Below, one piece after another: positions 2,089 to 15,870 of a DNA stretch of 64,000 bases (position 1 is the stretch's first letter; each line of letters begins with the position of its first letter). The notes under the pieces were generated by a model. The model saw only the letters and a program-made list of their open reading frames with translations. It did no database searches and had not been told where the DNA came from. The stretch is from NCBI RefSeq assembly GCF_000187245.1, contig NC_027860.1, positions 558,001 through 622,000 on the forward strand, written 5' to 3'. Source of the stretch: Ogataea parapolymorpha DL-1. Taxonomy: Eukaryota > Ascomycota > Pichiomycetes > Pichiales > Pichiaceae. The position numbers and the translations under genes are program-made.

Positions 2089-4175
2089 TTTCAAAGTTCA
2101 GGAAGTCTAAATTCTCTAGGTATTGAAGACACGCTTTTTGATGCAAGACAAATGATTTCTTTATTCAAATAAATATAATAGGAGCCAAGGATTCTTACCT
2201 TGATTTTTTCTTTGAAGTAGACAATCAAGTCTTGGTGCGGAAAACTTATGCGTGCAAGCTTGGTCTTCTAAGTTCAGGTTAAAGGATGCCAAAAGATATC
2301 AAAATCGAAATTTCTTTTTGGTATATACACTATCAATTTTGATAAAGCTTCGACCGCAGATACTCACTACTCTTTTGAATCCACATATCGAAAACAAAAG
2401 ATGAACATGTTTTCTTCTCAGCGGCCATCTCATAAAAGGGTGCTGAATGAATTCCTTCGTGGGCTTTCAGCTGTTGATTTACCTCTTTTGCTGAGGAATT
2501 AATTACTTTACCATATGTTGCGTTTCATTAGTTCACGTATACTCAAGGACATGAATCGTGTTAGTGACAGCATTTTTAACAGTTACCTTGCAATTATTAC
2601 CTGTCATGAAAGCTTACGTTCAGGTTCAAATTTTGCACCCATTTTATGAGCACGGAGTCCTACATGCAAATCACAACGAAACAAAAATATAACACCGGTT
2701 TTACGAGATACCCCCGCACAGTTGTGAATATGATCAAGTGTGCAACTCTTTGGCGTTCATAGGGCCCTATGTGCCGACATCTTTTACTGATACACCTATT
2801 AGGGGGTCCTTTATAACAGCAGCCTATAGCGTCTAAAAAAACGCCGATTAATGACATCAACCTCGAGAACTCAATCTCATTACTGACTTATTCTCAATTG
2901 TTGGTTTTCTCTTTTGCGTGTTTTCATCTGATGAATCAATCAGTTAAAGGGTCAGTAGGACTTTCCCACTTCGCGAGTGCAGCTCTTTTACACATTTCAG
3001 CGTGTGTGTGTAATTTTTGTTGGACATATCTTTGAACTTGATAAGCTTTTTGCTTTCACCGAATGGTTCGCATTGTCTCTGGAAAATAGAACTATGTTTG
3101 TCTGGGGACATGGGATCTAGATCATCAATCAAGAGATAGCCCTTATATTCACGTGACCTGTGTCACATCTGGCCTGTTTTTCGAATTTGAGATTTGGCTA
3201 CATCTTTTTGTAAATTCATCTCAAGAGGAAACGATAGCAACAGCATCAGCTGTCATATACCGGCATATTAATCTTGGCCTCATTCGGGACGCTACTTTTT
3301 TATACCACGGTGGAATACTCATGTTATCAAGACAATTGAGATTGTGACAAACCGGTCTTCTAACTTCGCAGTCGAGTATTAGGATTAAAATTCAGGATGG
3401 CCTACGGCAATGACACACATTTGTCATGCTAAACCTAGCCAATATTCTGGTTCTGGAATATATTCTTGGTGGTGGAATCTTTTACAAAACATTATTGACC
3501 GAAAGCGTCAACTCCCTGAGATGATGGGAATTTGTCGTTCGGTTCAAGCATTCTCCAGCTTACAAGCCCATAGCTAAGACCATTTCGTTTGATTTACAAC
3601 TGGACAAGGCGTATAAAAAATTAGAATGACTGATTTTTAATTTTGCTCAAAACACATTTGCCATTTTCCGGGACGCCAAGGGAGAATAAAATTGAGCCAA
3701 AACGAAAATGTTCTTGTTGAAGTTGACTTATGATAGAAACGCTTCAAGTAGCCCCCAGAGAAATTGGGGTAGGAAGTGAAATCATACTCCTCCCTTTGTG
3801 AGATCACTTATACGTTCTATCCTGGATTGAAAGTTATGCGTTTCCGATTTTGGTGTGCTCAGAAAGCACAACAGAAAACGACGCAAACGCTCCTTCATAA
3901 AACGATCTAAATTTTGGAAGTGTGCACAGACAGGGATTTCAAGTTCTTAAACAGTTCCGAACATAGAAGCAGAGATTGGATAATGATACGTCAAAAGCCA
4001 TCGAGTCAGGTATAAGCACTTGAACTGCTGAAGACAGATATTTTACAGGTCAACTATTACAAGCTACGAGCCCCGTTGGGTAATTCAACTAGGAAATGAA
4101 TTCCGCTGCAGATGCCAAATAAACTCCAAAGTGCTGGCAACCATCTACCAGGGAAAAGTAAATTAGACCGATGCT

Positions 4176-5349
4176 TGACTAAAGCCCAAATTAAAGTCCT
4201 TGAGTTTTTTCAGAAAGGTGCCATCTTCGTTTTCTTGGCACTGCGAAAAAGGTGATGGAAAGGTTAAATACAATCTGAAAGCCCTTAATGCTATATTCCA
4301 CCACAACTTGTCCAAAAGACTGCTAAGAACTCTGCCACTTCCTGATCATGGAAGAGATTTGTTGAACTATCTTGAACACACTTATGTCAATGTCGCCCTC
4401 TTCGAATTCATTTGCAATGGACCAAGATCAGTTCCATAGGATCTCCAGTGACGACAATAGAGGATTATATTGGTTTTACTGGGAACACACCTCCTCCATA
4501 TCTAGACCATGGAATATGATTTGATACGACTCCACTAATTTACATGAACAATGAACAGGTGGCTGCATAATTATTGGAATTGCTTCGTAGCCCATCAACG
4601 TGTTGCCAGTTTTGAACCTTGTCCAAAAGATGATAAAAGTGGATGTGCTTGAAAAAGATTTCATTGGTACTGGATACTTAAACGTAAACAGCAAGCTCTG
4701 AGGAAACACAAGATCAGAATATCAATTGCCTTACAAGCCAAAAGGAAGGTCACAAATATTTGATTGCAGAGTTCCCTTCCCGGTAAAAGGAAACTTGCCA
4801 AGTTTGTAACACCTCCTTCGACTTCGATGGCAATACTCATTGTGGAGCTCGCACATCTACATTGAACGTCGCTTCGAACAGTTTGCTATCTTGCTAGTTT
4901 GTTAGATCTAGACTCATACAACCTGAACTTTGGTCTCACTGTAAAATTCCAATCAACAAAATCACCTCTTGAAAAGTGAGCCACATACGGTGTATTTATT
5001 TGAGGACTAGGTGCTAATTATATTGTAAGAGCTCAAAAAGTTATCGTGCTAAAACGGACTGAAGGTAAGATTTTTCTACAGGTTGCTGACTACATGTCAA
5101 AAGTTGCAAATGAATTTGTCCTCAACGAAAGCGATAATGACCAGCGGAATCACTCTCCACTTCCATGACAAAGGAGCTCACCTCATTAGTTATAATTATT
5201 CGGCCAATATGTTTTTCCAGGGTATGTTAAATTCAACCGAATCTTCTTCTTATGTTCCGGAAGCTTCTTTGGCCCCATTTTATAACAGAAGTCAGCATGT
5301 ATCCATCTGTGCCAATGTCAAAGAATTTAGATATCATATATCCAATTGA
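4176..5349 (+). pseudogene. Eroded coding-like tract of unknown family
   Basis: Consecutive plus-strand stretches read like protein but switch frame and contain stops: 4179-4439 (open to TAG), 4552-4809 (interrupted by TAG 4588 and TGA 4699), 4866-5168 (interrupted by TGA 4977 and TGA 5001) and 5083-5349. Short pieces such as LPYKPKGRSQIFDCRVPFP and EGKIFLQVADYMSKVANEF look like real protein, which is the main reason to suspect a decayed gene. I do not recognise the family. A minus-strand open stretch at 4476-4709 (77 codons) competes, so strand and extent are uncertain, and AT-rich sequence can yield protein-like text by chance. Confidence 0.3.
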
Positions 5350-6295
5350 CCAACCATGAGATGCTTGCGTGCTTGAGAAGTCTGTATGTGGCATCCCTGA
5401 AAAAGCTAGAACCAAAGTCCACAACCACTAGAACTCCTACATGCTGTTGTCTGGACTTTTCCCATTCAGGATCTTAGCATGAATGGTTTATTTTTTTGGC
5501 TGTTGTGAACGGATCAACTCGCATGTGTTTCACCAAGCAATGAGCGTTTAAATATGAGACCAGTGCCATCATCATTAATCATATTCACGCATAAGATAGA
5601 AATGTGGCACATAAAATGTTTAATGGTATTTTTGTGCACAAAAATGGCACAGAATCTGACAATCATACCTTGAAAACGTTCGAAATGTTTCTTGGTTCCA
5701 AGAGAATCGGCATGAACTCGCTACGATTTGTGGTTGTCACCAGATTAATGTTGCCGAACATATGATTTGCACTCTTACCGCCCGTCCTCGTGGTCTTGCT
5801 ACCGCTGCGCCTCTGAAATAATTCTAACTGATTGTTTCATTTATTCAATAAGGGCTTTCGTCAACTACTAGAAAATGAATTATAGCCGCTTTCTAGTTTT
5901 GATAAATTAATTGGTTGCCAATTCAAACTAATTTTTTTGTGGATGCAAAGCTTATGCACCTATGCCTGAGAATTAAAATTCATCTCAACTATCTCCTGTA
6001 ACTAAGCCGGCAGATGATATTGGCTCTAGTACCCAACACAAAGCATCCCCCTCCATGATATGTCTTCAATGACCTTCTACGACGATTCGCATGTCCATTT
6101 GGTGCCAATTGATTCCTTTTCCATGTGAACCACAAAACTCAATAGGTTGCTATGTTAAAACCAGCAAGATCCACCAGTAGTATGTGGACAGTTTGCCACA
6201 ATCGGCATTAGTTCCTCATCTTTTGGCAATGTCTGTTGATCTTTATTTGTATTAATATTTAAGTTTTGATTTTTATAATCAGTATTAATATTTAA

Positions 6296-6661
6296 ATCTT
6301 CTATTATTCTATCTGTAGTAGAACTAATATTAATAGAATTCAATACACACTTCCCGGTCCGTTCGTTCCTCTGTTTGATCAGCACCACGAAATTTGAGAT
6401 CCAACTCAGACAAGCCTAGTACTACACCGTTTCTGGAACCGGAATCTGCTGTGCTCTAGCGGCAACAAACATTTGCGAAACGCTTTTGAAAGCTTTCTAT
6501 ACGAGCCTTATTCGTCGACATCTGACTTTTCTTCGGACTCTCGCAGCCCACCACCATCTCCTGATGATTTCCTGAGCGACTCACATTTTTTCCGGAACCT
6601 GACTCCAGTTCAGTTCGGTTTAACAACAACTCCATCCACCTCACATTCCATTTCCCGATAG
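6296..6661 (+). pseudogene. Open coding-like tract with one internal TGA
   Basis: One frame stays open for 122 codons from the TAA at 6293 to the TAG at 6659, broken only by TGA at 6395-6397. It has no ATG that would give a plausible complete protein. The second half is rich in Ser, Pro, Asp and Phe, as in disordered fungal regions. The family is not recognised. It may be the remnant of a gene or a chance open stretch. Confidence 0.22.
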
Positions 6662-7360
6662 GTTTCGAGCTCTTGCTCCGGCAATGGAGTCTGATTGTGA
6701 GGAAAAACTCCCCATGCCAATCATCTGTCCAAAACTAGCTGGCCTCTCAACATTTCGAGCGATCCACTGACGCATGAGCTCTTTTGTGCATGACTCGGAA
6801 AACTAAAATTAATTCAGTCCATGTATCTCGAGGATTCAGAAAACTCACAACCGGTAGAGCATCTGCCGAGCCTCTAATCTTCTAATCTTTGTATTAACCT
6901 CCATGATGATTTTCCCTTGCTACTCGATTGCCCCTTGTACTGCAATCAGATGTGTGCAACATCTTCAGTGCTTACACGTTGAGATAGAAGACCTTTACGA
7001 ATTTTGCATTTTTTTGCTTTTGGAATGAACCTAGGTTTACGTAATCCTCTATTTCTCTCGACCTCTTCACCTATATATGCTCCATGTTGGATTATGGACT
7101 TCAGCCTTACAATAATTTGACTACCCTATGTTCTCTCGACCGCTGAACTGTATATTTCGCAGACCATCACAATCAGAGTACGCCGGTAGAAAAATGTTGT
7201 TTGGTCCTGGATTGTTCGGATTGACATTGCATTCGTCGTTTCCAACTCGAGGAGATAGTTTCAGAAGCCAAGCAACTTGCTATTAGCCAGAGTCAAACTT
7301 TCGCTCAAGTATCTGAAAGACATACCTGATGATTGTTCTCTTAAGACTGAAGCCCCCAAG

Positions 7361-7640
7361 TGTTGAGATATGATAGTCATAGATTATATCATGGCTGTGC
7401 GGCTTTCCTGATATGAAGGTTTGTGGGCCTTAGCGCATGCATGGTATGTGCATCAGATTCAGATGATACAAATCTGAATCACATATGAGATTAACCAAAT
7501 AATATATAAGAGTGTATCATATCCCACTTATAAGTGAGGGACTTAGGTATAAAAAGATATTAACTATCTGATACATAGTCACACTATTTGAGGAAGAACA
7601 ACGACTGTAAACATTACACTTATCAAAACAAATCTCAACA
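7361..7640 (+). mobile_element. Solo LTR, copy 1 (280 bp)
   Basis: The sequence starts TGTTGAGATA and ends TCTCAACA, the TG...CA termini of a retrotransposon LTR. No internal retrotransposon region is attached on either side. Bases 7377-7632 are identical over all 256 positions to the reverse complement of 11811-12066 in copy 4. The left flank is CCAAG and the right flank AAACT, so this copy lacks a matching 5-bp target duplication; CCAAG reappears next to copy 4. The interior contains a 12-bp palindrome (CACTTATAAGTG) and a 9-bp inverted repeat (GATTCAGAT/ATCTGAATC). Strand is assigned relative to copy 2; the direction of transcription is unknown. Confidence 0.88.
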
Positions 7641-8049
7641 AAACTGAACCAGCTATTTTGAGCCGTAGGTAAAAATTTCAATTACATACATGTATCTTTC
7701 AAACTGCTGGATTCTTGCCATACATGGATTGGAGGTACACAAAAGAAATATAGAAGAAAACATAGTGTGAATAATTCGAAGATCGTATACATCTTGAGAA
7801 AAACAAAAGGGAGCATCCCACTCTTTTCATATCTATTAGAGTAACAAAGCGCAGAATGTTGTGAGACCACTTATCTCACAATGGAATAGATGAGCAACTT
7901 CCGATAACTCGTAGAGATTGTTCTATCAAACTCCGAGATCTTATCTTTGGCGCTTGCACGACCATCTGAACTCAATCAACAAAGCAAAGTTTTAGACAAA
8001 TCTGATTGCTTCTTCCCTGTGGCTTGTGCCTCAAATAGAAAGCTAATCA

Positions 8050-8316
8050 TGTTGAAACTTTGTTCTGATAAGTGTAGTGTCTACAGTCATTATTCTTCCT
8101 TCAATAATGTGACTATGTATCAGATAGTTAATATCTTTTTATACCTAAGTCCCTCACTTATAAGTGGGATATGATACACTCTTATATATTATTTGGTTAG
8201 TCTCATATGCGTATCTGAGAATGGGCTCACATTATGCATGTGTTAAGACCGATAAACCATCATAACACGATAAGTCGCACAGCCATGATATAATCTATGA
8301 CTATCATATTTCAACA
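8050..8316 (-). mobile_element. Solo LTR, copy 3 (267 bp) with target-site duplication
   Basis: This is an inverted copy of the same LTR, bounded by TGTTGAAACT on the left and TTTCAACA on the right. Both flanks are AATCA (8045-8049 and 8317-8321), a perfect 5-bp target-site duplication, so it is a genuine independent insertion reduced to a solo LTR. It has diverged in the middle: the region matching the GATTCAGAT inverted repeat of copy 1 is partly deleted or substituted. Confidence 0.9.
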
Positions 8317-9859
8317 AATCAAACGAACCTTCATATCAGGATAAGCAAAACATTTTTTGGTAGAGTATATCAACCTTATCTTAATTGCGCGATATGTGTA
8401 GGAACAGAAAAAATCTTGGTACTTGAGATACTTCCGATGAATGGATTGGCACTTTGTTGATGTTAAGTCTTTTTAACTAGTTCAGGCCTGTTGACATACT
8501 ACGACAATTGGCACTACTGAGATTCTTGGATCTTATAAATGGGTATCTTGCAACTGGATTGTAGTATTTCTGAGATTCGAGCCGTTCATATCTGTGGTGA
8601 AGTTGGTTCGGCAAAACTTCATTTTATTTCTTGTTTCAGATCTGCTAACCGAAATGCAATATGGGAGTAACCTCCAGCTTAGTTGGCGTGGCATGGCTGG
8701 CTACCTTGATTAGCTAATGCGTCATCATTTTAAAATAAAGCTTAGTTGTTGAACTAATAATAGCTCATATCTTTATTCAACACGGAGTTGCCCGAAAATC
8801 TTAGTAGATGATTGAGATCAGCCAATTTAGATATGCATGTTGCTCTCAATCAAAGCCAAGTGAATGAAAAGGAAAAAGCCCCTTAACTTATCTTTCAGAC
8901 AACCATTCTCGTACGCTGTTTGTCGTATTTGTCCAAGAGGCATGGATTGGAAGCTGTCATTTTTAGCCAAAATAATCTATCAACATGTTTAATCACTGAG
9001 ACAATACTTTTTTTTTTCATAGAGTATTCGCCTCAGATTGTAATATCTGTTGATAGATAAAAACCAACACATTTCTGGCCCCTAAAAATTCTTACAATTA
9101 CTTTTGGAAAATTTTAAACCTGGCTGATTGACTATTAGGTTCGTAAGTAGGGAGGTCTTCGATCTTATGAACAAGGAAATTTTGATGTAAATAATATATG
9201 AACGAGATTGTAGGAACCTCTTTTTATAGAGAAATTCCGGCATAGTAATCCAGTATCAAAATATTCATGTATTCATGTTGTCCCTGAGCCGCATACCCTT
9301 GAGCTCAGGATAAGAAACATTAATGCATTATCGCAACTGCTACCTTCTTACGCAAAAAATAATAACTTCGAACGTCAATATTTATGGTCTCCTGACGGGC
9401 AAAAGCAGCTACATGCTTTTTTTTGATCACCATACCATTTCGATGATCTCATCAAAGCTTGTGGCCATGCTCCCAAGTCAAGGTCCATTTGCTTTAACAA
9501 CTATTCTAGCCATAAAGGTTTCTTAGCAGCTTCAGCCCTAAAAAAGTCTCAAGTTCTGGGGCAAATCGGGTCATACTAATCTATTTCTTTGAATTCTAAC
9601 TAAAAATAGAGTTCTCAACCCATAATATTATCACAGACTGAGCGCCGTCCAGCATCTCTTGCACTTTCAGCATTACAAAATATTTAGTCCATTAACTGAG
9701 AATCAGGTGATCCTCACTAATTTTAGCCGTCGTCAACTGTATGTAAAAAGATTATACTGAACATATTTTTCATCCGCTGAATGCCCCTTTGTTGGCTTCG
9801 TCTGAGAACGATAGAAACGTCACGAGCTATCATTGTATTCATAGCAAAGAGAAACCTCT

Positions 9860-10561
9860 ATGGTGTTGCGATACGGGGTAAGACCACAAAGAACAGATAC
9901 TGAAAAGCACACAGACAAAGAGGATGTCAACGGGGTCTCAAACTCTAACCTATATCCAGCCAAAAAGTTGAAGGAGTTGCAAATCCACTGTGACAATCAT
10001 GGCGAGATCAAACACATCAACTTCGAGGGCCGAAAGCGATCAATCTTGACCAAGTTTCTTTATCTGAAAATAAGTTCGCAAAACCTCCTGTGTCAGGTGG
10101 ATTTAGATCGAAAGATGATACTATGAGAAGAATACAAAGATAGAGAGAGGGTTCTACAACTGTGGCACTTGTGGGAAGATTTCAATACCAGGTTTACTAG
10201 AGGCGTCTTGAATCTGTGAGCTTGAATATGTAGTCAGCATCTATGTTCCAACGAGGAGGAGTTACTGAATTGGATTAGCAAAAAAAATGAGAACATTTTT
10301 CTCCATGTTGGGCATCTTGTATTTGATAGATATCTCTCGAACAATAGACGGATTTTGAAACGAGTCGTATATAATTTTGTTTCAGAGTCAAAATCCCACG
10401 ATGGCAAGGGTACCGTGATTGGCAAGTACATTTGGAAGGTATCAGATCTTGGCATTTATCTGGGATTGAGAATTTATTCCACAACCAAATTCCCTCCCGG
10501 AATGGAGGTCGTGGTAAAGAAATCTAGAGAAACTTTCAAGGATATGGCAACACTTAGATAA
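9860..10561 (+). pseudogene. Decayed gene of about 234 codons with three in-frame TGA codons
   Basis: A single reading frame runs from ATG 9860 to TAA 10559 with just three interruptions, all TGA (10124, 10217 and 10223). The text reads like protein throughout, for example KKLKELQIHCDNHGEIKHI early, VLQLWHLWEDFNTRF between the stops, and VSDLGIYLGLRIYSTTKFPP near the end. The last segment (10226-10561) is open for 111 codons but has no ATG. I do not recognise the family. Most likely it is a pseudogene with recent point nonsense changes (CGA or TGG to TGA). A frame that is still translated in pieces, or an origin in a system reading TGA as Trp, cannot be excluded from the sequence. Confidence 0.45.
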
Positions 10562-11801
10562 TAATTATGTTGAGACAAATTAAAATCAACATCAGGATGG
10601 CTTGACCTGAGCATTTGTGAGTGAGGATTCGTCCGTCAAAGAAGTGAACTCTAAGCGAATAGGTTACGTGTGGGTGATAAACTTCTCAGAAGGAGTTCCG
10701 TCAGGGAGTTCCCCCTCCAGTGGACGTATCACTTGATGAGGTGCAAGGACGGGAATCGTTAACCACTCCACCATATGATCTGAAGAGCTAGCTTATTTGG
10801 ACAAACTTTTTACAGAGAGAAATCAACTTCAAAAGAATGATAATCGGATAATAATAATCAATATATAAAACCTTGATAATACTCAGGACAGCGAGAAGTA
10901 TCATTTATCCAGGAAGGGATCGAAGCAACGTTCACAGGCCTATATGGAGATTGCATGAAGGCAAGTCAGGTATCGAATGGTTCACCTTCGGGCGCAACAG
11001 ACAATCTCATAGAGCCAAACATAAAAGTTACCGCAGCGAAAATAGAAACAATGTTCAAACTGGGCTCCACCCAATCATTGCTGGATCAAGGGATGCTGAG
11101 CCGGTAACTATGAATCGGTTTCTGCTTGCGACAAGGAACTCCTGCTCATTGAAAGAACCTGTAGGCACTCAACCAACCGCCCCAAAGACATGTCAAGTAG
11201 TAGATAACCTTAGATGCTGGCTGTAATCTAAGAAAATAGCTGATGCTGTATTAGGAGACAGTTTGGGGTGTCGCAACTGGGATGGTAATGAAAAATGAAG
11301 CTCGACAACTAAATGACAACGAACTAACGCTGTATTGAAACAGGACAAAGCAAGGATAATGGACAGATTATAATTTAAGTAGCGAGGGCCGCTTCCCTGT
11401 CAATGAGAAAAGTATCCAGAAGTACTACAAAGCAGTCAATGTTGGCCAAGAAATCCTGCTTCTGTCAGAGAACACCGTCACGAGAGGTGAGAGTCCGAGG
11501 CACGCGTTTAGTGAAAGCGTTGTGATAACTAGAGTAAGGCGAGGTCACCTCTCAGTTTAATGACCTTGGAAGTGGAAATTTCAGTTGATACCAAAGCCTT
11601 GCGAGCCATACAAGCTCCTCCATTACACCTCCATTGCTAAGTATTTGGCATTAGTGGATGGTAAGGTCACTATGGCTTGTTTGTTTGACCTCCATGTAAT
11701 ACGAACAACTGCAAGTATCCATACGTACCCAAGTGGTAGCTCATGACTATTTTCATCTCTCCGGTCTCTATCGCCTGCCGTACCCTATAATGCACACTTG
11801 G

Positions 11802-12082
11802 TGTTGAAACTTTGTTTTGATAAGTGTAATGTTTACAGTCGTTGTTCTTCCTCAAATAGTGTGACTATGTATCAGATAGTTAATATCTTTTTATACCTAA
11901 GTCCCTCACTTATAAGTGGGATATGATACACTCTTATATATTATTTGGTTAATCTCATATGTGATTCAGATTTGTATCATCTGAATCTGATGCACATACC
12001 ATGCATGCGCTAAGGCCCACAAACCTTCATATCAGGAAAGCCGCACAGCCATGATATAATCTATGAATACCTTATCTCAACA
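11802..12082 (-). mobile_element. Solo LTR, copy 4 (281 bp)
   Basis: An inverted copy bounded by TGTTGAAAC (left) and TCTCAACA (right). Its core 11811-12066 is a perfect 256-bp inverted repeat of copy 1. The flanks are CTTGG (left) and AGATT (right), which do not match each other. The left flank is exactly the reverse complement of the CCAAG beside copy 1, and the right flank matches the reverse complement of the other copy-1 flank at 4 of 5 bases. This points to an exchange between copies 1 and 4. Confidence 0.88.
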
Positions 12083-13363
12083 AGATTGTTGCGCAGGCCG
12101 TCGGTTTGTAAGTGAATCTGACATGCATATAACAGCGCAAGAGTTTCTGTAACAAGCTATTGGAACTAGCCACACATGTTATTTTTGGCCGGCCTATCTT
12201 TCAATTCAAGATGAAACGCATACTACGATATCACAACTAGCTGAGTGGTATCTAATAGAGAATCCACAGTAGATAAATTCAAAGGTAACTCTGGCAATGC
12301 ATGAACACTCCTCTTCAAGTATTGAGTAAATTTAGTGTCATCTATGACAAGAATAGAAGAGAGTAAAGTCAGTCCTTCAGTCCAATCTTTCGGTATATAG
12401 AGAAAATCCTAGTTGGAATACCGAATAATAGATTTGTCGTCAACCGTAAAAATTAATACCACATCAGCTACCACATCAACTTCGCGCATGCTGATACCTG
12501 CGACATTAACATCTACAACTTCCACTTCCGATCCGAGTTTACATCATTGCATCTTTGATATTGTTAAAAAAAAATACACTAAGAGCTCTAATCTTGTTGG
12601 AATCATACATGGATATGTCTCTTTGAGATATCATGCATCCTATTTTGGTCTGTAGGGTGTGATTAACCTAAAGTTTAATATGTAGAAAAATATTCACCAT
12701 GAGGTGTGAAACATAGCTTAGCACAAATCTTAACGTGCTCATAATCTTTAATAGGCACACAAGAAAGTAATCACATAAGTTATCTCTAACACCAGCTCAG
12801 AAGTTTAGAGGCACACCTTGAAAACAATTGATGAAAAATCAACCCTCAATTGCGATTCCTGATATCAAAAAAATCAGCTACAACAAACCAAAACGTGATT
12901 TAGTTGATGAGGGCTGTTTCCAATTAAAATAATCATGAAGAGAAAAAAAATCAGCAAGTTTCTGCACTGCATCGCGGATGCCTCCCAGCATAAGCCAGCT
13001 CGAATACTTGTTGATACAATAAATATAGAAGAGTGAGTGTGAGGTGTTATGAAATGTATTTGGACACGGGTTCTTCATACTGCTCTGCTAGGCAGTACAA
13101 GGAATTATCGACTAACCTAAAAATTTGTGTATTATGGGGTATTCAACGATGGGGGCTTGAATTCTCAAACAAGAATCTACCGCATTGCATGGTACATCAA
13201 GTGCAATGGCAGTTCTCTTGTTGAACTGCCAACAAAAGCAATTCATGCTGGAGGGTTCGTGTTTGGCTAATTAACTAGTAGATTTGACTTGACGACTGTG
13301 TTTTTATCCATGTCACACAAGTTCAAAGAGTGGCTTCCTTATACAGTTTTTTTTACAAATCAT

Positions 13364-13430
13364 CCTGAGCCGCAGACCTTTCAACTCGGGACTGAACGCG
13401 TTATCAGAACAACTATCTTAGTCGTGTATC
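13364..13430 (+). repeat. Diverged short interspersed repeat
   Basis: This segment shares the exact 11-mer CCTGAGCCGCA with 9283-9293, and the next 17 bases match at about 12 positions. A third segment near 12190-12255 is similar over about 23 bases around CTTTCAA...GAAACGC. All three lie in the gene desert. It could be an old LTR fragment of another family or coincidental similarity; the match was judged by eye. Confidence 0.3.
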
Positions 13431-13866
13431 TGTCATAGGTTTTTGAGTCATCTTTAATCAGCAAAAGATAGGCGTAGCTTCTAGAAGGGTGTTTATCAAC
13501 AGTAGGTCTAACAATGCTTGGCCGGAGTTTGCTTAAGAATCAAGTGACCTTTCTGAATGTGGTCCCTAATCCGACGATAATATGTTGAATGCTTATTTAA
13601 TTTCATAGTACTGGCTGGTGTTATCCACTAGTGAAATTGGGGCTCTGTCATATACACCTTAGACATCAGGATAATGGTCATATGGATGAGTTCCTGATGA
13701 CTTTTCCTCCGGCTTTTCAATAGCGCAGAGCTACGAATTGCACCAAAGTGTTGTTTCCTCGGATTCCGGTCAATCAAACTAATATGTATGGCTGTAGATC
13801 TTTCATGAGCAGTCAATGGCTCACTTTATAGCATTGTATCATTCTTCAATGTCGAAATCAACCAAT

Positions 13867-14150
13867 TGTTGAGATAAGATAGTCATAGATTATATCATGG
13901 CTGTGCGGCTTATCCTGATATGAAGGTTTATGGGTCTTAGCACATGCATAAGTATGTGCATCAGATTCAGATGAAACAAATCTGAATCACATATGAGACT
14001 AACCAAATAATATATAAGGGTGTGTCATATCCCACTTATGAGTGAGGGACTAAGGTATATCAAAGATATTAACTATCTGATACATAGTCACACTATTGAA
14101 GGAAGAGCAATGACTGTAGACATTTCACTTATCAGAACAAAGTTTCAACA
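13867..14150 (+). mobile_element. Solo LTR, copy 2 (284 bp) with target-site duplication
   Basis: The copy starts TGTTGAGATA and ends GTTTCAACA, with a perfect 5-bp target-site duplication CCAAT at 13862-13866 and 14151-14155. It differs from copy 1 at roughly twenty positions, including a base change inside the central palindrome (CACTTATGAGTG). It serves as the reference for the end structure of the family, because both its ends and its duplication are intact. Confidence 0.92.
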
Positions 14151-15870
14151 CCAATCTGAATAATTGGCAATTACAAAGTGACTTAACAGGGGCTCCAGAC
14201 GTTGCATGCCTATCTTGATTTTATCAAATGTTTTTTTTTTAAGTATCGTATTCCTTGAGCACTTTTGTCTTTGGTTAATTAGCGAATGCATCACTACCTC
14301 ATCTGTGCACTATATGCTTCAGTGTTTTCAGACGGCTGAGTCAAGGTATGTACTGAATATTACAACATTAGATAGAAGGAATTGTATCAATGAACTATGA
14401 CAGGTATCAAATTTAAAATTCGAGATATTTAAATAGCAGAATTTTTTTAATCGCTCATTTATATCTTTAGTCTGCTGCCATTAAACTGTTGAGTTGCATC
14501 CAATCAGGCTTAGTCTAAGGAAGCAGTGCTCTTAAGTAGTCTAAATAACTTCTGTCGTCTCTTTCACCCTAAGCCTTTACTAAGCAAAGAGGCCCAGTCC
14601 CCCAATGACTAGCCTAGATATAGTAAGAATATTTTCCGTCAGATGCTCAATAGCCGAAAATTTGAAGGATATATTATTTTGATGTAACGTTGCGCAAAAT
14701 TATTATCATAGAAAAGACTAGGTCGCATACCTTGTGGTTCTCACATTTCAATGAAGCACAAGAAACACTCACTATCTATTACCAACTACGGTTATGAATA
14801 TTGTGACTTGGAGAGGACGACTAGTACAATACTTTTTTTGGCATAATAGCTAAATCAATAGTGATAATTATGCATCGAATTCAACGTGCCTCGTGAAGTC
14901 AAAAGTACTGACACATTTAACGAGTGCTCCTTGAAAAAGGTAAACTTCACGATTACGGTATGCCAGATAGCTAAGTCCTGGGCGCCTTTTAGTGGAGGGA
15001 AGAGGTAGGTAATCAGAGAACTGAGGATAGCAAGAGCCTTGAAGGAATTTATGGAAGTAGATATAGGTTGTCATGTTTGATTAACCAAGCATTCTATCCT
15101 TGGGTGAAGGCATGCTGCTGAAGATTAGGATGTGTGTTGGGATAATGCCATCATGAAACTCTTCTAAGCAGATACCATTATAAGTACTGCAAAGGAGAAT
15201 GCCTCTTTATAACCCCGTTATGGGATTATCTACATCGAAATTCCACAACATCAGATCTAACTTTTCATCAAGCAGACCCATTGGTCACTTATTCGGTTAG
15301 TCAAAGATGGTCACACGACCAGGCGATCCCTGCTCTTTGTGAAACAAGTTCGAGACAAGTTTATGCATTGGTGACAATAATCTGTCACGACAGGTATCGT
15401 ATAGGCGGGGTGAAGAATAAAGAATTATATGCCTCTCGACAAAAAGGTTTACATTGATGAGAAGTATATTGCATATCATATCGACTGCTTCTTCTTTTGA
15501 ATTTTGCAATGATCCTTTTCAACTGCCAGCTCATTATGAAACTAGTCTAACTCTTTAACTGGCTCCTGAAAGATTGTTTTAATTTTCTGCAACCGTGTAT
15601 ATTACGTAAACTCGAACCCCATTTTTTTTTAAATATATAAGCTAATCAGAACTTAAAATATCGAAAAGAAAAAAAGTCCACGCGTGACCGTAATCAGATT
15701 TTGCTACATAGTCTACGCAACATGACAAATCCAACGTTACTATGCGATCAGTACTGAAATAAGACATACGATGCTGATACGCTGATTGGTGATTAAACAT
15801 GGCGTACATTAGAAATGAGCAATTTCTTCTGCCGCGATCATATTTGATTACCGCTTCCAATATCTGCAAT

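Follow-up and report, generated by a model that had tools for sequence, protein, structure and literature searches.

Why should two long terminal repeats (LTRs), lying in opposite orientation and identical throughout their cores, each carry on one side half of a target-site duplication whose other half stands beside its partner? The question is raised by copies 1 and 4 of a cluster of four LTR copies in Ogataea parapolymorpha DL-1, the genome of which comprises 8,874,589 bases in seven contigs (C1 to C7). The stretch analysed here, referred to as the window, is 64,000 nucleotides long and corresponds to bases 558001-622000 of contig C7. An initial annotation of the window, made from its letters alone, had explained the pair by an inversion of the interval between the two copies; the genus that it named, Komagataella, is wrong. 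The analysis described below makes it very probable that the pair records a crossover between inverted solo LTRs, accompanied by gene conversion, within a putative centromeric LTR cluster.

The longest exact run between copies 1 and 4 extends over 256 columns, and the two copies differ at three columns near one end and at seven columns near the other, one of the seven being a gap. Together they form inverted arms of 272 nt that are 99% complementary. Read in LTR orientation, the flanks of copy 1 are CCAAG and AAACT and those of copy 4 are AATCT and CCAAG. LTR comparison and the listing of inverted repeats thus bear out the initial annotation as to an inverted pair with a 256-bp identical core and unlike ends, and its claim that the duplications are swapped between the two copies holds at 5/5 bases for CCAAG and at 4/5 for AGTTT/AGATT. 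The flanks of copies 2 and 3 likewise contain the perfect duplications of their own (AATCA and CCAAT) that had been ascribed to them. In the assembly, copies 1 and 4 are hybrids, and undoing the inversion brings their odd ends together. In the alignment of 29 LTRs, copy 4 stands alone in its bases at columns 13 and 16, and copy 1 in those at four columns of its CTCAACA end. Four columns are common to copies 1 and 4 and occur in no other LTR of the 29, two further columns are common to copies 1, 2 and 4, and copy 2 has an exact run of 92 bp in common with copy 1 and likewise with copy 4. In the following, LTR A denotes the insertion with the CCAAG duplication and LTR B the one with the AGTTT/AGATT duplication.

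The order of the locus before the rearrangement can be read from related segments in other clusters of the same genome. LTR-free relatives of the C7 locus are located at C2 341927-345301, which carries, at one point, 354 bases absent from C7, and at C4 441845-444383. Positions 441845-442366 of C4 align to window 6850-7363 on the plus strand, and positions 442359-442599 align reversed to window 11801-11566; the 8-base overlap between the two matches includes the duplication. In the base-by-base alignment both C2 and C4 run through ...GAAGCCCCCAAGTGTGAATTG... with one CCAAG; CCAAG is where the left flank of copy 1 stops, and CCAAGTGTGCATT opens the left flank of copy 4 when the latter is reverse-complemented. 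A test sequence of 395 bases was joined by undoing the inversion and removing LTR A together with one CCAAG. A 391-base span of it (387 columns, 91.5% identical) crosses the join in C2 and in C4; the as-assembled flanks of copies 1 and 4 align to C2 and C4 only up to the junction. At the LTR A junction zero bases were gained or lost. LTR A accordingly had CCAAG as its insertion site, and in the assembly the two sides of this insertion are now separated by 4.4 kb and oppositely oriented. The uninterrupted order in C2 and C4 at this junction supports the inversion that had been proposed.

Table 1. Features of the LTR cluster in the window (positions are those of the window; a dot marks features given without strand).
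Feature	Position	Strand	Remarks
LTR copy 1	7361..7640	+	hybrid: left end LTR A, right end LTR B
CCAAG	7356..7360	+	LTR A target-site duplication, left half
AAACT	7641..7645	+	AGTTT on the minus strand; LTR B duplication, one half
LTR copy 4	11802..12082	-	hybrid: in LTR orientation left end LTR B, right end LTR A
CTTGG	11797..11801	+	CCAAG on the minus strand; LTR A duplication, right half (displaced)
AGATT	12083..12087	+	LTR B duplication, other half (4/5 match)
Interval inverted in the proposed event	7641..11801	.	4161 bp; crossover would lie somewhere within the identical LTR cores
LTR copy 2	8050..8316	-	intact AATCA duplication; within the interval
LTR copy 3	13867..14150	+	intact CCAAT duplication; outside the interval
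Block P	6348..7360	+	related to C2; 6850-7360 also to C4, where it adjoins reversed block Q
Block Q	11566..11801	-	related to C2 and C4
Block R	12170..13642	-	related to C2 and C4; placed differently in the C7 cluster
Block S	7719..7972	-	related to C2 and C4
Stretch holding the LTR cluster	2089..15870	.	about 13.8 kb; no complete ATG-started ORF of at least 120 codons

Inspection of the flanks of the LTRs in all seven clusters revealed a second pair of this kind, located on C6. The LTR at C6:1001497-1001744 (plus strand) is preceded by ATATC and, beyond its shortened right end, followed by ATAGT; the LTR at C6:1002573-1002853 (minus strand) has, in LTR orientation, ATAGT and ATATC. Both duplications match at 5/5 bases across the pair (10/10) with no match within either copy, and both are restored when an inversion of 828 bp is undone. 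One LTR of this pair has an internal deletion of approximately 35 bases. With the same kind of trace on a second chromosome, the event appears to be real and repeatable rather than unique. A third candidate pair on C6 (997460/998372), with a match of 5/5 (GTTTC) on one side and 3/5 on the other, was not counted, because GTTTC is at the same time the terminal sequence of the LTR itself and because the 25 longest exact runs listed do not include this pair.

How often such matches would arise by chance was judged from the flanks of the whole set. The 29 LTR places were reduced to 27 insertion units, with two full-length elements each counted once, and two 67-bp partial matches were assigned to composite LTRs. 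Curation of the flanks was manual. At the places with an LTR end that was missing, mutated, duplicated or deleted (C2:351629, C3:919746, C5:450717, C1:314115, C4:444577 and C6:1001497), the boundary was moved beyond this end and the flank read from there; at C5:448888, which has a damaged start, the flank was read at the matched edge. A perfect 5-bp duplication of its own is present in 15 of the 27 units, one unit has a 4/5 match and four make up the two exchanged pairs. As for the remaining units, C6:998372 is seemingly off by one base, and six have unmatched flanks and no partner, possibly owing to deletions between direct LTRs or to decay. Among the 11 units with own matches below 4/5, the best cross-pairs are those on C6 (10/10) and C7 (9/10). 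Random flanks of the same base composition, drawn 20,000 times for these 11 units only, gave a best pair of at least 9 in 0.26% of the draws and of 10 in none. Exchange between chromosomes was considered as well and rejected, since the 351 pairs of the 27 units contain no exact left/right flank match between different contigs; between contigs, the units without a perfect duplication of their own display only one-sided 4/5 matches.

The LTR cores point in the same direction. Out of 406 LTR pairs, the two with the longest exact runs are the exchanged pairs on C7 (256) and C6 (212), both on the same contig and inverted. For LTRs on the same contig the exact run averages 66.5, or 60.0 if the two exchanged pairs are set aside, against approximately 41 for LTRs on different contigs; 0 of 5000 label shuffles reached either within-contig mean. 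The longer runs within contigs suggest gene conversion; they are support for it and not proof, because a shared insertion history could contribute.

The course of events at the C7 locus can be outlined as follows. Two solo LTRs of the Ty5-like (Ty1/copia) type would have come to lie in opposite orientations approximately 4.2 kb apart in the cluster, LTR A with the CCAAG duplication and LTR B, apparently the older of the two, with AGTTT/AGATT. Gene conversion would have homogenised their cores, as the 256 identical bases between unlike ends suggest. A crossover between the cores, either within a chromatid or between sister chromatids, would then have inverted 4161 bp and swapped the distal LTR halves along with their duplications.

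An artefact of the 454/Newbler assembly would place a flipped contig between the near-identical cores while the real chromosome kept the ancestral order, a possibility that the initial annotation had left unconsidered. The assembly is based on 454 shotgun reads with a mean length of 326 bp, an 8-kb mate-pair library and gap closure by PCR, and the exchanged pairs are the longest exact LTR runs, which is where an assembler would also fail. A long-read study from 2025 reports other errors in the short-read assembly (an expansion on chromosome 7, and gaps on chromosomes 1 and 4), and the cause of the misassembly of chromosomes 4 and 7 was not clear to its authors. Against an artefact, the estimated number of bridging reads is 8-12 per C7 core and 14-16 per C6 core, given the published read numbers and assumed length spreads, and approximately 66 (C7) and 13 (C6) mate-pair ends are estimated to fall inside the intervals if 142,896 reads equal 71,448 pairs. 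Longer repeats were resolved on C2 and C5: two elements that are 99.98% identical over 4652 bp each keep a matching duplication of their own, ACTCA on C2 and CTTCT on C5. In the 2025 study the long-read assembly was aligned to the short-read one and Inspector was run with long reads; the alignment breakpoints coincided with the gaps on chromosomes 1 and 4. Besides these, its available text names only the expansion at chr7:1,067,235-1,068,147 and no inversion near chr7:565-570 kb; the same text makes no direct statement on the C7 locus, the words 'centromere', 'LTR' and 'invert(ed)' being absent from it and 'inversion' occurring once, in a general remark about the tool. On balance an assembly error seems improbable, and the assembly is presumably correct at the C7 locus.

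The same final sequence would result if the inverted LTRs had undergone replication-template switching or single-strand annealing in place of a crossover, and template switching at inverted repeats has been described (PMC10766183). Nothing in the sequence calls for such an event, and the LTR A junction neither gained nor lost bases; we regard this route as unlikely and infer that the event was a homologous crossover. Two unrelated insertions with decayed or lost duplications and accidental cross-matches are scarcely credible: six other insertion units do have unmatched flanks and no partner, but two pairs match at 9/10 and 10/10, scores that were rare or absent in the random draws, and for LTR A the undisturbed site in C2 and C4 contradicts this explanation. 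That the two LTRs are the borders of a composite mobile unit which moved as one piece, as their long complementary arms might suggest, was rejected as having practically no probability, since the outer flanks (CCAAG and AGATT) differ and form no duplication, and the undisturbed site puts the sequence inward of copy 4 beside the left flank of copy 1.

Several points weigh against the crossover account. The trace that an assembler flip between identical repeats would leave is identical to the one observed. The C2 and C4 relatives are 95% alike over 2.5 kb and may descend from one copy, so that they may count as one witness, not two. An empty site for LTR B was sought and not found, the joined flanks aligning one-sidedly, one side to C2 only and the other to C4 only. 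The earlier claim that undoing the inversion restores two normal insertions is therefore borne out by the undisturbed site for LTR A, and for LTR B draws on the flanks (4/5) and the odd ends. The C6 pair likewise yielded no empty site: when C6:994001-1006000 was compared with the cluster regions by blastn, there were five non-LTR matches, none of them at the LTR junctions. All evidence on orientation comes from one genome, that of DL-1. Finally, blocks R and S of the C7 cluster lie outside the order seen in C2 and C4 even with the inversion undone.

The four blocks (Table 1) show how far the order of the cluster is recovered. C7 sequences within window 6348-7363, 7719-7972 and 11566-13642 are 85-91% identical to C2 or C4. 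In C2 and C4 the order is P, -Q, -R, -S (a minus sign marking reversed blocks), and in C7 with the inversion undone it is P, -Q, the sequence 7973-11565, -S and then R. Apart from its LTRs, the part 7973-11565 has matches of only 39-54 bp in the other clusters examined. Because R and S remain misplaced after a single inversion is undone, the C7 cluster must have been rearranged more than once, and the order and orientation of these two blocks require at least one rearrangement beyond the LTR inversion. Within block Q, at window 11632-11778, there is a decayed match to a Ty5-like polyprotein.

In what kind of region did this take place? All four LTR copies fall inside a stretch poor in open reading frames (ORFs; Table 1), bordered by a mannose-6-phosphate-receptor-like ORF and a BRCT-domain ORF; gene content was examined at the C7 cluster only. 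A genome search with copy 1 as the query gave at least 31 scored matches, the counts being lower bounds, with one cluster on each of the seven contigs. Under the earlier species name Hansenula polymorpha, the LTR clusters of DL-1 have been published as likely centromeres, and approximately half of the Ty/Copia sequences fall in these regions, the remaining elements lying elsewhere (Ravin 2013, PMC3866509; for this and the other papers cited, our statements refer to the portions of text that were available). The initial annotation was unaware that the locus is one of these seven clusters. The C7 cluster is likely to be the putative centromere of chromosome 7, an identity that derives from published work (PMC3866509, PMC8496258). 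In 1-kb windows the G+C content is 36-42% in the C7 cluster and 36-46% in its neighbours, with no sharp trough, and all of these windows are below the published genome value of approximately 47.8%. Rfam and tRNA scans, the latter in a bacterial setting, gave no matches.

Inversion by means of inverted repeats is a known mechanism, also at fission yeast centromeres and in the MAT region. In the fission yeast centromere a crossover between flanking inverted repeats flips the central core (PMC10813616), but the repeats there are built-in centromere repeats, whereas those in DL-1 are solo LTRs of 280 bp. The MAT flip/flop of O. polymorpha, in the same species complex, is likewise an inversion by inverted-repeat recombination, but it involves 2-kb repeats and a 19-kb interval and is part of mating-type switching (PMC8496258, PMC9019687). 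The centromeres of Komagataella phaffii, also a methylotrophic yeast, have inverted repeats around a middle region (PMC6894112, PMC12711049). These are kilobase repeats flanking a core, whereas the longest inverted repeat listed in the DL-1 window is 272 nt, and among those of at least 60 nt listed there only LTRs occur. For O. polymorpha, centromeres that consist of Ty5-like and LTR clusters and lack inverted repeats have been described (PMC12711049). In its accessible portion, the description of the centromeric LTR clusters of DL-1 (Ravin 2013, PMC3866509) is given without inversion, exchanged duplications or conversion, and the literature searched, as far as its text was accessible, contained no account of inversions inside Ogataea centromeres.

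Although yeast centromere surroundings have been described as poor in meiotic crossovers, two of the seven DL-1 clusters bear the trace of an inverted-LTR crossover. With exchanged duplications, breakpoints can be tested in one genome sequence by itself, and the ancestral order can be read from related segments of other clusters with no need for a second genome. The finding also bears on how LTR-cluster and inverted-repeat centromeres may interconvert. It is a rather doubtful extension that inverted LTRs serve as switches which repeatedly flip short stretches of Ogataea centromeres, with both orientations present in culture and in populations, and that such clusters lead to inverted-repeat centromeres like those of Komagataella. 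If both orientations did coexist in long reads, the rate of centromeric crossover would become measurable.

The LTRs themselves have the ends TGTTG...CAACA, and their TG...CA ends and 5-bp target-site duplications are as in a Ty5-like (Ty1/copia) LTR. Full-length elements are also present in the C1, C2, C3 and C5 cluster regions. In the C1 and C3 full-length copies the 5' LTR is followed by TTATGAGCCC, a putative match to the initiator-Met tRNA half. A primer site of the initiator-Met tRNA half after the 5' LTR is considered diagnostic of Ty5-like LTR elements (PMC12711049), and a later publication gives the DL-1 LTR length as 282 bp. Two full-length elements, C1:318406-322987 and C3:920303-924866, belong to the 282-bp LTR family; they are 96.9% alike over 4354 bp, and neither has matching duplications. 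At its end the C1 copy carries a composite LTR (67 bp plus the LTR), which also occurs as a solo composite at C3:912573-912912 with the duplication AACCC. In three LTRs (C1:314115, C4:444577 and C6:997460) the 3' end is present in an additional copy of the GTTTCAAC(A) type. The Ty5-like elements C2:345829-350477 and C5:453862-458510, 99.98% identical over 4652 bp, have 264-bp LTRs of a family other than the 282-bp one; the element on C2 has, on the minus strand, a single frame that stays open for 1394 codons from stop to stop, and the two elements were possibly active recently.

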